Below are positions 3,245-7,425 of a stretch of DNA of 22,925 bases, piece by piece. The translations under genes and the position numbers were made by a program. Origin of the DNA: a virus. Under the pieces are notes generated by a model. That model was given only the letters and a program-made list of their open reading frames with translations. It ran no database searches and was not told the origin of the DNA. Where the stretch lies: positions 1 to 22,925 of the IMG/VR virus record IMGVR_UViG_3300037325_000057, one strand, 5' to 3'. Position 1 is the first letter of the stretch. Each line of letters opens with the position of its first letter.

Positions 3245-4795
3245 CTAATAAAATTGCGGCACAACTGCCGCTGGTGCATCTTCAAATTGCATCGCTCGCT
3301 CAAGTCCCATGATGGCCGCAACAGCAAGGTCGATTTTGCGCGAAGATGATTTGTTTTCTTTATAGATGCGAGTGCCGCGTGAGTCTTGCTTCAGCACAGC
3401 GTTGGACACATGACGGTTTAGTGCAGGGTTGCCGTCATGCGTTAGTTGGCGCTCAAGCACCATCTGCGTGAATCTCTGTGTTGCCGGTGTCATGCGCGCT
3501 GCGCTTTGTGGGAACGCCACAACAGGCAAGCCTTCCGACTCCAACACTTCCAACGAGCGCGCCCAGAGGTGCGTGTCAGCCGTGACTTCAACGACGCGCC
3601 AACGCTCAGCACACGCCCTGATTCTTTCCTCAACGTCAAGGATTGGCACAGTCCAGCCAACCTCACCCGGTGGCTTTTCCCACACGCCAGCAACAGCGAT
3701 GTGCGGAAACTCCCCAACCTGTACCGCGATCAATGCGGTTGAGTCATTGCTGAAACTGCCGTCAAGGGCAAGCACAACATTGACGTGATCAGGAATCTCA
3801 CGGGCGTTGTGGCATTCAGTCCAAGCAACATCAGGCAACCATTGACCCTGGATACTTACTGGGCGGTTGAACCAATACCGCTGCCACTCAGCCGAAGATG
3901 TTTGCGGATCATCGTAGGAATCTGCGAGGGCTTCAACGTCCATCCAGTCAGCGGCTGGCCCGTAGACCTGTTTCAATCCGGCGATACGGTCGCGCCGTTT
4001 CTCAGCATCAAACTTTGGGTCAGCCTGCGCGTGATCAAAGTACAATCCAGAATCTTTAGTGCGGCCTTCCTTCACCGCCTGCGCGTAGTCAAAGGTGCCT
4101 TCAGCAACGCTGCCCTCACCGGGCGCGAACATTGTTGTTGTCTCCAGCGCCCAGCCGTGAGCAAGTTTGCGCTTAAGCAAGTTACGCAGCACAACTTGGT
4201 GCAGCCGTTTCAACTTTGGTTGAATCCACAGATGCGACTCATCAAAGACAGTGAACGTGGATTTACCACCATCAGCACTAGAATCTGCTGCTGTCTCTGG
4301 TCGAATCACGCCGCCGTTGGGCAGCAAGGTGCGAGCGTAGCCGGGATCAATGCCAGGGTACTTGTCTTGGAGTGCAGTTGATTCCTTGCACATATAAAGG
4401 ATCGTGTCGTAGGTGTTGCCGGCTTGACCGAGTTCGGTTGCAAAGCAGAGAACCTCTGGGCGTTTCACTGGCGCGCCGACAGGTTCGCCGGCCTCGTATG
4501 GATAACCCCACGCACTCACTTCACCAGCGACAGCCCAGTGATCAAAGCGAACAGGGCCGAGAGACTCAGCCATTGCAATGAAAGCAGCAAGCTCAGACTT
4601 AGCGCGACCTTTTGGGCGGCTGATAACTGAGCGTCGAATTGTTTTCTTGCCCGTTGCGTCAACCTCATACGATTTCACAATGAAGCGAGAGAACTCATCA
4701 TCAAGCAGGATTGGCTCACCTTCAATGTCGCCGGGGCCGTGAACTAAGAAAGTTTCAATAAAGGATATGACTTGGTAGCCAAGACTAAGGGCCAT
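3245..4795 (-). CDS. Terminase large subunit
   Basis: ATP-driven packaging motor and nuclease, 516 residues. An adenine-site/Walker A-like stretch SRPKGRAKS is at 59-67. Walker B with catalytic carboxylate is FTVFDESH (181-188), and the coupling motif is ALETTTM (about 216-222). The RNase H-like nuclease domain has LALDGSFSNDST (Asp345), VTADTHLW (Asp407) and RKIDLAVAA (Asp489) as likely metal ligands. AAGGAAG precedes the ATG. The start lies 52 nt inside the 3' end of the upstream HNH gene in another frame, so the HNH tail and the TerL N-terminus are double-coded. TerS is normally the direct upstream neighbour; here an HNH gene stands between them. Confidence 0.93.
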   Translation of the reverse strand: MALSLGYQVISFIETFLVHGPGDIEGEPILLDDEFSRFIVKSYEVDATGKKTIRRSVISRPKGRAKSELAAFIAMAESLGPVRFDHWAVAGEVSAWGYPYEAGEPVGAPVKRPEVLCFATELGQAGNTYDTILYMCKESTALQDKYPGIDPGYARTLLPNGGVIRPETAADSSADGGKSTFTVFDESHLWIQPKLKRLHQVVLRNLLKRKLAHGWALETTTMFAPGEGSVAEGTFDYAQAVKEGRTKDSGLYFDHAQADPKFDAEKRRDRIAGLKQVYGPAADWMDVEALADSYDDPQTSSAEWQRYWFNRPVSIQGQWLPDVAWTECHNAREIPDHVNVVLALDGSFSNDSTALIAVQVGEFPHIAVAGVWEKPPGEVGWTVPILDVEERIRACAERWRVVEVTADTHLWARSLEVLESEGLPVVAFPQSAARMTPATQRFTQMVLERQLTHDGNPALNRHVSNAVLKQDSRGTRIYKENKSSSRKIDLAVAAIMGLERAMQFEDAPAAVVPQFY

Positions 4796-5601
4796 TTGTC
4801 AGACTTCCTTAAGTTACATTTTTGACAGGCTGGCCTTAAGTTGCAAAGCATGTGAGCGCCACCTTTAGACAAGGGCTTTACATGATCAATGTTTTCTTTA
4901 GCGCCACCACACATCCAACATCCGGGGAACATGGACATCCGGTCGTTAAGTTGTTTTTGAGTAATTTTGACAACAGTTAAGTTTCTTTTTTTTGCTTGTC
5001 TTGCGCGTTCTAGCATTGTTGCAAATTGCCTGTGCTCTTTTTTGTATCTTGACGCATACGCTAAAACATAATCGCGGTTGTTGGCGCGCCACTCGCGTAT
5101 TCTTTCTGGAGGTGGTGGCCCTTTTCGCAGCCGAGATTGAGCGGATGATTCCCTTGCCCTGATAATCTTTTCAGGATTTTCTAACTTATCTTTTTGGTAT
5201 TTTTTTTGAGCTTGTATTGGGTCGTAGTATTCTCTGGCCTTTTTTGCATTACATTCTCGACAATATGAGGCCGAAACAATGTTTCCCGATCCGGCAATCC
5301 TTTCCCCAAAACGATTAAGGCTAAAAGTTGTTTGGCAAGAACGGCAAAACTTTTGGTTGCCTGCGGCCAATTTCTTTGCTGCAACATCCCGACGCTGTGC
5401 AAAGTGTTGCGCTGATCGTGAGCAATATCCACAGCCGCCACGATTGCCTCGAATGTGGCACACGGTCGGATTAACAAATCGGTTACAGGTTAGGCAAATA
5501 GACAGCAGTGGTGTGCGTGCGTCAACGTAAAGACCAACACGCTCCAGACCGACTGCGGACAATGAAAAATCAACTTCATTAACGGTCAGTTTTTTAGGCA
5601 T
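4744..5601 (-). CDS. Free-standing HNH endonuclease with N-terminal zinc fingers (homing type)
   Basis: A 285-residue protein. The N-terminus (about 25-70) has a treble-clef-like module with CLTCNRF and GGCGYC, as in other mobile HNH proteins. A second Cys pair set follows (FCRSCQTTF and YCRECNAKK), then a basic helical region (RIREWRANNRDYVLAYASRY). The C-terminal HNH fold carries CWMCGG, NIDHVKPLSKGG and CNLRPACQKCNLRKSD. The ATG at 5601 was chosen over 5634 because GGAGGAG lies 7 nt before it. The gene sits between TerS and TerL and overlaps TerL by 52 nt. It is AT-rich: 5161-5220 has 16 G/C of 60, against 37 of 60 at 181-240 in the capsid gene. Likely acquired by homing. Confidence 0.85.
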   Translation of the reverse strand: MPKKLTVNEVDFSLSAVGLERVGLYVDARTPLLSICLTCNRFVNPTVCHIRGNRGGCGYCSRSAQHFAQRRDVAAKKLAAGNQKFCRSCQTTFSLNRFGERIAGSGNIVSASYCRECNAKKAREYYDPIQAQKKYQKDKLENPEKIIRARESSAQSRLRKGPPPPERIREWRANNRDYVLAYASRYKKEHRQFATMLERARQAKKRNLTVVKITQKQLNDRMSMFPGCWMCGGAKENIDHVKPLSKGGAHMLCNLRPACQKCNLRKSDKWPLVLATKSYPLLKLS

Positions 5602-5607
5602 CTCAAG

Positions 5608-5656
5608 CTCCTCCACAAAAGGCGAAACGGCCAAGTGTTTGTGGCACTTGACCGCT
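5608..5656 (-). promoter_or_regulatory. Hairpin with loop complementary to the HNH ribosome binding region (element A)
   Basis: On the minus strand a 12-bp stem (5656-5645 with 5637-5626, two G-U pairs) closes a 7-nt loop CCACAAA (5644-5638). After a 6-nt linker (5625-5620) comes TTTGTGG (5619-5613), the exact complement of the loop, whose last two bases are the first two of the GGAGGAG ribosome binding site of the HNH gene starting at 5601. Pairing would mask that site. The arrangement matches the element before the other HNH gene (6893-6940) with unrelated sequence. Pairings are read directly; control of translation is inference. Confidence 0.6.
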
Positions 5657-5713
5657 TCTCGTTGCGGTAATTAATCGCAACTAGTCCAATGATATTGATT
5701 GTTAAAAACTTAG

Positions 5714-6145: not shown

Positions 6146-6886
6146 TTATCCAATCATCATAAGTTGCTCGTTGCCGCCACGGTCACTTCGTTGCGAGTTG
6201 CATAAAAAATGAGCCAATTTTAAATTTGACACATCGTGAGATCCACCGGCAGATTGCGGGACTATGTGGTCTAATGTTTTGCTGCGAGGATTCAAGTTGT
6301 TGAATTTTCCCCTTGCAACCAGCAAGCCGCAAATATGGCATTTCCATTTATCTCTAACACAAATGTAGTCAATTACTTTTACGCGTTGTTTTGCAAAAAC
6401 CCGAAAGGCCCTCTTAGTTTTCAGTTGCTTTTGATAACGCAATTTCAAGATACAACTTTTGCAAGTCTGCTTTTTTCTTGTCGGTCTAGATGTATGTAAA
6501 ATTCCACACGAAAGGCAAGGGACAAAACATATTTCAGATCGCTTATATATTAATTTTGTACATTGGTCGCTGCAAAATTTTCGGTCATTTGACTTAATAT
6601 ACGATTTTCCACAGTTGTAGCAATCAGCCCAAACTAATAATGAGCGCCATTCAGTTGATATCCCACTATCTTTTTGGGAATTTTTGAAGCAGATACGCGA
6701 ACAGAATTTTATTTTGTCCCTATTCTGCTTAAAGGCTTCCCCACAATATGCACAATCAATGAATCTTTTGTGACTCAAACCATATATTGCAACAGTCCAG
6801 CACTCACTTGAACAATACTTGTTTGCTCGCTTAATTTGACCTTTTGATAAATTTTTATTGCAGTGCATGCAAATCAGATTTTTCAT
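6146..6886 (-). CDS. HNH endonuclease with four zinc knuckles (homing type)
   Basis: A 246-residue protein. Four Cys4 modules come first: CMHCNKN/CSSEC, CAYCGEAF/FCSRIC, CYNCGKSY/FCSDQC and CLSCGIL/CKSC. A basic linker and a C-terminal HNH domain follow, with CHICGLL, LDHIVPQSAGGSHDVSNLKL and HFLCNSQRSDRGG. The knuckles probably read DNA and the HNH domain cuts it. The ATG at 6886 was chosen because TAGGTGG precedes it; the frame extends to 6922 without a better site. The gene is strongly AT-rich (6421-6480 has 20 G/C of 60), unlike the structural genes, which supports acquisition. It lies between the packaging HNH and TerS, ending 6 nt before TerS. Confidence 0.85.
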   Translation of the reverse strand: MKNLICMHCNKNLSKGQIKRANKYCSSECWTVAIYGLSHKRFIDCAYCGEAFKQNRDKIKFCSRICFKNSQKDSGISTEWRSLLVWADCYNCGKSYIKSNDRKFCSDQCTKLIYKRSEICFVPCLSCGILHTSRPTRKKQTCKSCILKLRYQKQLKTKRAFRVFAKQRVKVIDYICVRDKWKCHICGLLVARGKFNNLNPRSKTLDHIVPQSAGGSHDVSNLKLAHFLCNSQRSDRGGNEQLMMIG

Positions 6887-6892
6887 TATGCC

Positions 6893-6940
6893 ACCTATTG
6901 ATTGGCGAGGGTGCTGCACCAATAGGTGTGCAGCACCCTC
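6893..6940 (-). promoter_or_regulatory. Hairpin with loop complementary to the HNH ribosome binding site (element B)
   Basis: On the minus strand a perfect 13-bp stem (6940-6928 with 6919-6907) closes the 8-nt loop ACCTATTG (6927-6920). A 6-nt linker GCCAAT follows, then CAATAGGT (6900-6893), the exact complement of the whole loop. CAATAGGT runs into the ribosome binding site TAGGTGG of the HNH gene starting at 6886. Pairing would form a pseudoknot-like or alternative fold that hides the site. No T-run follows the stem, so it is not a plain terminator. Confidence 0.65.
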
Positions 6941-7116
6941 TAGCCCAACGGATCAAGTTGGGTTGAAATTGACTGTTTTGGAAGTTCCACGATTGCGTGG
7001 ACTTTGTTTAGCCTCAGAGCAGGGTGAACAAAAAGCACGAATGTGGATTTTTGATGTCGCCTCCGGGGTTTGCCGGGGGGTCTGACTCAAAATAAAATGA
7101 AATGAAAATGAATAAT
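6941..7116. other. Non-coding region beside the packaging HNH; candidate cos region
   Basis: 176 nt with no convincing gene. It holds hairpins CCCAAC/GTTGGG (6944-6962) and CCACG-ATTG-CGTGG (6987-7000), and a G/C-rich segment CTCCGGGGTTTGCCGGGGGG (7061-7080) next to an AT-rich purine run (7088-7125). In HNH-TerS-TerL phages the cohesive-end site often lies near these genes, and G/C-rich overhangs are usual in actinophages. The cos assignment is positional inference only. Confidence 0.3.
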
Positions 7117-7425
7117 TTATTGTTTTAATGTTTTGCTGCGAACGATGTTGCATGACCTATGTGCGGGTGCAAGGGGTGATTCGGTGCTTGCTGGAATTAC
7201 ATGGTCAGCCTGCCAAGGGTCACCGGGTCTGTACCCTTCCCCACATAACCAACAAACAACTGCGTTGTCTCGCACTTGCTTTGCTCGCTTGCGGTAATCC
7301 CCGGAGTAGTGGGGGCGCTCGCCTCTGCGAGATTCAATGATTCGATCTTGTTTGGCTTGGCAAGGTGGGCAGCGACTGCCTCTGCTGATGGCACCACAAC
7401 CAAGGCAAGCCTTATTGAATGCCAT
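7117..7425 (-). CDS. Packaging-associated HNH endonuclease
   Basis: A 102-residue compact HNH protein. CLGCGAISRGSRCPPC (about 7-22) is a Cys4 zinc site. A basic segment follows, then the HNH core CWLCGEGYRPGDPWQADHVI and HRSCNIVRSKTLKQ. This short type, without extra fingers, is the one normally found just upstream of TerS in cos phages such as HK97 (gp74), where it works with the terminase in DNA end cutting. Here TerS has been separated from it by a larger HNH gene. Base composition matches the structural genes, unlike the two AT-rich HNH genes. The ATG lies 15 nt after the previous stop; no strong ribosome binding site, so coupling is likely. Confidence 0.85.
   Translation of the reverse strand: MAFNKACLGCGAISRGSRCPPCQAKQDRIIESRRGERPHYSGDYRKRAKQVRDNAVVCWLCGEGYRPGDPWQADHVIPASTESPLAPAHRSCNIVRSKTLKQ

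Follow-up and report, generated by a model that had tools for sequence, protein, structure and literature searches.

The window analyzed here (i.e., the whole 22,925-bp virus fragment) carries on its minus strand a terminase and capsid region (portal, protease, terL, and terS) in which terS is flanked by two HNH genes: HNH-A lies between terS and terL, and HNH-B lies upstream of terS. The locus raises the question of whether the leaders of these two genes, which share a layout and differ largely in sequence, belong to a single RNA family, and what such a family might do for the genes that it precedes. We consider it likely that the leaders (elements A and B; Table 1) are two members of an undescribed family of pseudoknotted cis-regulatory RNAs that occurs in actinobacterial phages and prophages and controls the translation of guest genes.

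Table 1. Positions in the window of the HNH genes and of the parts of the two leaders
Feature	Position	Strand	Description
HNH-A gene	4744..5601	-	285 aa; zinc fingers N-terminal, HNH C-terminal; Pfam HNH PF01844, 1.1e-7; PHROG endonuclease VII/HNH
HNH-A ATG	5601-5599	-	Sequence reading
Element A, overall	5681-5602	-	Hairpin 1, hairpin 2, linker, and SD strand before the HNH-A ATG
Element A, hairpin 1	5661..5681	-	GTTGCG, loop ATTAATTAC, CGCAAC; in the MFE fold; aligns to R1 hairpin 1
Element A, hairpin 2	5624..5658	-	14-bp stem with two G-U pairs: GAAGCGGTCAAGTG (5658-5645) / CACTTGGCCGTTTC (5637-5624)
Element A, hairpin 2 loop	5644-5638	-	CCACAAA, 7 nt
Element A, linker	5623-5620	-	GCCT; starts with the family's conserved GC
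Element A, SD strand	5619..5608	-	TTTGTGG (5619-5613), whole-loop complement, then AGGAG; RBS GGAGGAG
HNH-B gene	6146..6886	-	246 aa; multiple CxxC fingers and HNH; Pfam HNH PF01844, 8.2e-9
Element B, overall	6962-6887	-	Layout as element A, before the HNH-B ATG
Element B, hairpin 1	6944..6962	-	CCCAAC, loop TTGATCC, GTTGGG; kept in L003 with loop CTGATCC
Element B, hairpin 2	6907..6940	-	13-bp stem GAGGGTGCTGCAC / GTGCAGCACCCTC
Element B, hairpin 2 loop	6927-6920	-	ACCTATTG, 8 nt
Element B, linker	6901..6906	-	GCCAAT, 6 nt
Element B, SD strand	6891..6900	-	CAATAGGT (6900-6893), whole-loop complement, overlaps RBS AGGTGG; then GG, ATG
Packaging-type HNH gene (control)	7117..7425	-	No R1 match; leader fold z -0.11

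The proteins encoded by HNH-A and HNH-B have only the HNH motif in common. The G+C contents of their genes are 44% and 37.5%, respectively, compared with 51.6% for the window and 52.8% for the packaging-type HNH gene. A relative of HNH-B (93% identical) is found in L003, which presents the empty site of HNH-A: terS joins terL directly (GAGTGAAGTCTCTCGGC), and HNH-A is absent. In the window, about 0.9 kb separates terS from terL and holds the entire A leader together with HNH-A. Judged from this comparison of sequences, the A leader is within the inserted DNA, and it would either travel with the inserted gene or have been assembled on it. Both genes are phage HNH genes (PF01844) of the free-standing type, HNH-A being an insertion, and endonuclease/homing activity is predicted for them. 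HNH-A and terL share 52 nt (4744-4795) in different frames; this stretch is the 3' end of the former and the beginning of the latter, whose start codon is thus newly provided by the insertion. A relative of HNH-A at the same terS-terL position in L001 (918-1511) has no leader, and its ATG falls within the last part of terS, which suggests translational coupling to terS as an alternative expression route.

In both elements, hairpin 1 lies directly upstream of hairpin 2, separated from it by GA in A and by CTA in B (sequence readings); this first hairpin was absent from the preliminary description, which had treated hairpin 2 and its surroundings. That description held that the dimensions of A and B are repeated. 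The layout is indeed common to both, but the loops measure 7 and 8 nt, the stems 14 and 13 bp, and the linkers 4 and 6 nt in A and B, respectively. Its hairpin in A is the one found here, except that the reported 12-bp stem and 6-nt linker become 14 bp and 4 nt with the two outermost pairs closed. The complementarity of TTTGTGG to all seven loop bases, overlapping the GG of GGAGGAG, can be read directly, as had been stated. The further statement that A and B share no bases was slightly overstated: the sequences largely differ, but A, B, and the family at large share an A before the first G of the stem and TC-GCC at the 3' foot of the stem.

Scanning both strands of the 22.9-kb window for a stem, a loop, and a loop complement returned A and B as the only long-stem whole-loop cases, and both end at the start codon of an HNH gene. 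Relative to shuffled sequences, the folds of A and B gave z scores of -4.4 and -6.7, respectively. The packaging-type HNH gene, correctly described as being without such an element, has an unstructured leader at 7425 (z = -0.1) and no R1 match (see below). In-frame upstream TTG codons inside the hairpins of the window were considered as starts and rejected, given that no SD lies at the right distance from them. A simple consensus scan found no sigma-70-like promoter in the A or B leader, bearing in mind that phage promoters may differ. Element B is preceded by a further small hairpin (6986-7001; CCACG-CAAT-CGTGG), which lies about 25 nt before its hairpin 1 and has an inner stem (CACG/CGTG) that is kept in L003.

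Scanning the relatives of HNH-B revealed the same layout before about a dozen HNH genes, with a common upstream hairpin. The preliminary description had proposed a covariance model as a test, and we built one (R1) from eight other leaders, leaving out the window sequence and the RBS strand. MAFFT, given leaders that differed in stem length, had put hairpin 2 out of register, and R1 was therefore made from a subset that aligns without gaps. In the window, the model ranked element B first (6962-6901; 40.3 bits; E = 5.9e-8) and element A second (5680-5618; 20.6 bits; E = 0.0022, a modest match), with no other significant match (next, 10.9 bits). Wherever the model matched an opposite strand (about 18 to 29 bits), it had recognized the hairpin in reverse, and such matches were disregarded. 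Because R1 finds A at this score, A is a member of the family, though a diverged one, with a hairpin 1 loop that deviates from the family consensus. The proposed test was positive, with matches upstream of HNH genes. These matches, together with the covariation over 44 leaders presented below, bear out the idea that a shared architecture with differing sequence marks a real RNA family.

Using the loop and stem of B itself as a pattern was abandoned, as it retrieved only L003 plus chance matches (L173 and L174). BLASTN with consensus elements against 50,697 phage records returned essentially nothing except a weak match in Streptomyces phage Xkcd426, and no element was present in the leaders of the distant HNH relatives that were examined first, which came from phage records. 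Rfam 15 gave no window match at the gathering score and none over the element in 13 relatives at E values up to 1. A literature search covering open-access papers found no such actinophage leader; an earlier description in a subscription journal is possible.

A descriptor blind to loop pairing, based on hairpin 1 (loop class) and the stem of hairpin 2, yielded 44 non-redundant leaders. In the family, hairpin 1 has 6 to 7 bp and a loop that is usually YUGAUCM and sometimes CYAGCUA; no other sequence of the element is as conserved as this loop. Hairpin 2 (11 to 16 bp) follows after 2 to 3 nt. In 43 of the 44 leaders, an exact complement to at least 6 nt of the hairpin 2 loop lies downstream, beyond a linker of 3 to 7 nt, and runs into the SD; up to thirteen of the 44 leaders were first found via the pairing, and about 30 of 31 still match when these are excluded. 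The mean loop-SD run was 7.14 nt, compared with 3.59 nt when loops and downstream strands were permuted (maximum of 2,000 permutations, 4.41). Three or four Watson-Crick pair types occur at each of the first six pseudoknot positions and at most positions of the hairpins, and all three helices covary across the 44 leaders (the counts ignore shared ancestry). Compensatory changes are also visible among close relatives: the orthologues L126 and L385 pair TCCAGA with TCTGGA and CCCAGA with TCTGGG, respectively, and L003, compared with B, has an unchanged loop and complement, two stem mismatches, and one compensatory change. The linker starts with GC in 36 of the 44 leaders. Two leaders that keep their hairpins without the loop-SD match (L367 and L213) look decayed. 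Thus, as in SD-occluding pseudoknots, the loop is complementary to a downstream strand that overlaps the SD, and this complementarity is conserved by covariation.

The strand on which the stems tolerate mismatches bears on whether the element works as DNA, i.e., as a homing or recombination site, a cruciform, or a nuclease binding site that merely adjoins the start codon. Inverted repeats, an association with mobile nucleases, and the palindromic core of the hairpin 1 loop (GATC or AGCT, and TTAA in element A of the window) would fit such a role. On the mRNA strand, however, the stems contain 28 G-U and only 3 A-C combinations (P = 5e-6). This excess argues that the mRNA, as RNA, is what folds, and it already disfavors a DNA-level feature. 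Moreover, the third strand nearly always contains the SD, the sequences covary rather than being conserved, and the element stands before unrelated genes. We therefore regard a DNA-level role as extremely improbable. The palindromic loop core could, on sequence grounds, permit dimerization.

A folded RNA might also serve mainly as a transcription terminator or insulator of the inserted gene, with the loop-SD complementarity being secondary. Hairpin 2 of element A was computationally flagged as terminator-like, and the GC-rich GGAAGCCCC/GGGGCTTCC stems look like actinophage terminators. Yet most members are followed by GCATTC or a similar sequence, with no T-run, and the loop-SD match is kept in 43 of 44 leaders despite changing letters. 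A strong terminator at this position, between a gene and its own SD, would also silence the gene. Termination or insulation as the main function is thus very unlikely.

Under the preferred model of a pseudoknotted translational control element, the 5' leader would fold into hairpin 1 and, after 2 to 3 nt, hairpin 2, and the whole 7- to 8-nt loop of hairpin 2 would pair across the 3- to 7-nt linker with the strand that holds the SD, forming a pseudoknot. The pseudoknot would compete with the anti-SD of 16S rRNA; the computed free energies of the loop-SD duplexes (-7 to -14.6 kcal/mol) and of the SD-anti-SD duplexes (-7.2 to -9.3 kcal/mol) are of the same order. We infer the direction of control by the leader to be downward: the pseudoknot may lower or gate translation of the gene downstream, a guest that in most cases encodes a mobile nuclease (an HNH protein, for example), and the strong hairpin may block coupling with ribosomes finishing the upstream gene. 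Expression of a nuclease inserted in an essential operon would in this way be kept low or conditional, for which the RBS-sequestering hairpins of the T4 and Aeh1 endonuclease genes provide a precedent (PMC2988022, section 12). With all loop bases paired and only 3 to 7 nt spanning a stem of 11 to 16 bp, the structure is sterically tight, so that partial opening of the foot of the stem is likely; the full pseudoknot may form only with the foot open.

Hairpin 1 points to a further contact with the ribosome. Actinobacterial 16S rRNA ends with GGTGCGGCTGGATCACCTCCTTTCT (read in two host genomes, L432 and L433), and the loop sequence UGAUCC is complementary to the GGAUCA of this tail, just 5' of the anti-SD. 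A complement of 5 to 6 nt to the 16S 3' tail is present in 41 of the 44 hairpin 1 loops; the GGAUCA match is absent from the AGCT-type loops (6 of 44) and from element A of the window. The complementarity suggests recognition of the ribosome. It also raises the opposite possibility, i.e., that the leader promotes translation, with hairpin 1 acting as a standby site for the 30S subunit and the pseudoknot positioning the SD or insulating it from upstream structure. The prevalence of the 16S match and the conservation of the hairpin 1 loop speak for such a standby site. Nevertheless, the loops share ancestry, so that the match counts roughly once; the AGCT-type loops and element A do without GGAUCA pairing; and the full loop-SD complementarity is hard to explain if the SD must be free. 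A promoting role is distinctly unlikely in our judgment. Two other features were noted around hairpin 1. Apart from lacking one G, its sequence (for example, CTGCGGCTGATCACC) is similar to GTGCGGCTGGATCACC, the 3' end of actinobacterial 16S rRNA. In addition, an unpaired stretch, ACCCCATAnGCAC, is conserved just before it (15 nt upstream) in L094, L265, L271, L388, and others, and does not occur in element A of the window.

As regards the genes that carry the leader, about 40 leaders were found with R1 at HNH-B-type loci, and 80 HNH-A-type and related loci had essentially no element. Since the relatives of HNH-A are usually without a leader, HNH-A seems to have acquired its leader independently. 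Genome scans with a heuristic first pass detected the leader in 9 of 295 genomes of the genus Streptomyces and in 3 of 301 genomes of the Mycobacterium family (E values of 1e-6 or less; seeds included), counts that are fitting for scattered prophages. The sampled loci are biased toward HNH relatives, except in these genome scans and in two gene-blind pattern scans on hairpin 1. From the latter came about 34 complete leaders. HNH genes of several subfamilies follow some two thirds of them; the others precede TnpB, a family of 200- to 270-aa proteins in virus records of 54 to 95 kb, a family of 148- to 149-aa proteins, and others. Other searches added genes for endonuclease VII (L358, and L429 by sequence motif) and an HTH gene (L239). 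Each phage record contains one to three copies. The preliminary description had tied the element solely to free-standing, AT-rich HNH genes. This restriction does not hold, given the endonuclease VII, TnpB, HTH, and unknown accessory genes downstream; AT-richness applies to the two HNH genes of the window, but GC-rich members are the rule elsewhere.

The TnpB gene is of the IS605 type (L377, 505-1900; the record of L353), with leader loop CCCCGAGA and downstream strand TCTCGGGG, and the gene lies 4.3 kb from an HNH gene of the same virus bearing a leader of its own. The 200- to 270-aa proteins (L398, L399, L400, L402, and L394; leader present in each case) start with MARLQILQLPAG or a close variant, and the one member scanned (L398) had no PHROG match.

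The range of downstream genes allows a broader interpretation, which we offer tentatively and hold to be rather unlikely. The leader would be a portable translational gate common to mobile nucleases of unrelated kinds (endonuclease VII, TnpB, and several subfamilies of HNH) and to further guest genes of actinobacterial phages. Its hairpin 1 would read or mimic the 3' tail of 16S rRNA and its hairpin 2 would hold the SD in the pseudoknot, so that expression follows the state of the ribosome and not a small ligand or a phage repressor.

RNA-level control of phage homing endonucleases is known mainly from relatives of T4, where each gene has a hairpin of its own. The present case is one of a single RNA architecture, outside Rfam, that recurs across many actinobacterial viruses before selfish nucleases from several families. 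This would show how a potentially harmful nuclease is kept in check by guest genes at any landing site. For annotators, the architecture also provides a marker of such guest genes, and as a compact part for translational control in actinobacteria it is amenable to tests by single and compensatory mutation.

Among known systems are the SD-occluding H-type pseudoknots (the preQ1-I and SAM-II riboswitches and the T4 gene 32 operator), in which the loop of a hairpin binds a downstream strand located at the SD or close to it; the loop is likewise complementary to a downstream SD strand in our leaders. Their stems are short, whereas the stem here has 11 to 16 bp and the whole loop is complementary, without free loop bases. 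An accessory hairpin 1 is present, a ligand core was not seen, and there is no Rfam match. HEARO/omega RNAs (IscB and TnpB) resemble the leaders in being structured RNAs that adjoin a gene for an HNH-domain protein. This identity was rejected because the HNH genes of the window have no IscB-type RuvC Pfam match and no Rfam match was found; in addition, the structure described here ends at the SD of the gene itself, and the TnpB leader (L353) is at the 5' side of its gene with the same SD pairing.

The ESAS of cluster K mycobacteriophages are, in the parts of the published account drawn on here, near-fixed repeats that are present many times over, together with a fixed 13-bp SAS (PMC3203893). 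They share with our leaders inverted repeats and a start-proximal sequence upstream of actinophage genes. The leaders differ in having one to three copies per phage and varying letters, and those parts of the account do not include loop-SD covariation (PMC3203893). The 13-bp SAS (GGGATAGGAGCCC) had a single match with 3 mismatches in the window, below the 3.2 expected by chance; identity with SAS/ESAS was rejected on this basis and on that of the one to three leaders per record.

The leaders of homing endonuclease genes in phages T4 and Aeh1 (I-TevI, segB, and mobE) sequester the RBS (PMC2988022, section 12); a simple hairpin there has the RBS in its stem, and transcripts without the 5' arm arise from a late promoter (PMC2988022). 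Elements A and B are likewise leaders of putative selfish phage endonuclease genes and are predicted to pair their own RBS. In Aeromonas phage 25, the free-standing endonuclease gene seg43(25) also has a very stable hairpin immediately before its RBS; this hairpin was rejected as the same element since its loop is not RBS complementary (NC_008208) and hairpin 1 was not seen. Unlike in the T4 and Aeh1 leaders, the RBS lies outside both hairpins, and any pairing that it enters would be with the hairpin 2 loop; an extra conserved hairpin precedes hairpin 2, and one architecture recurs before unrelated genes.
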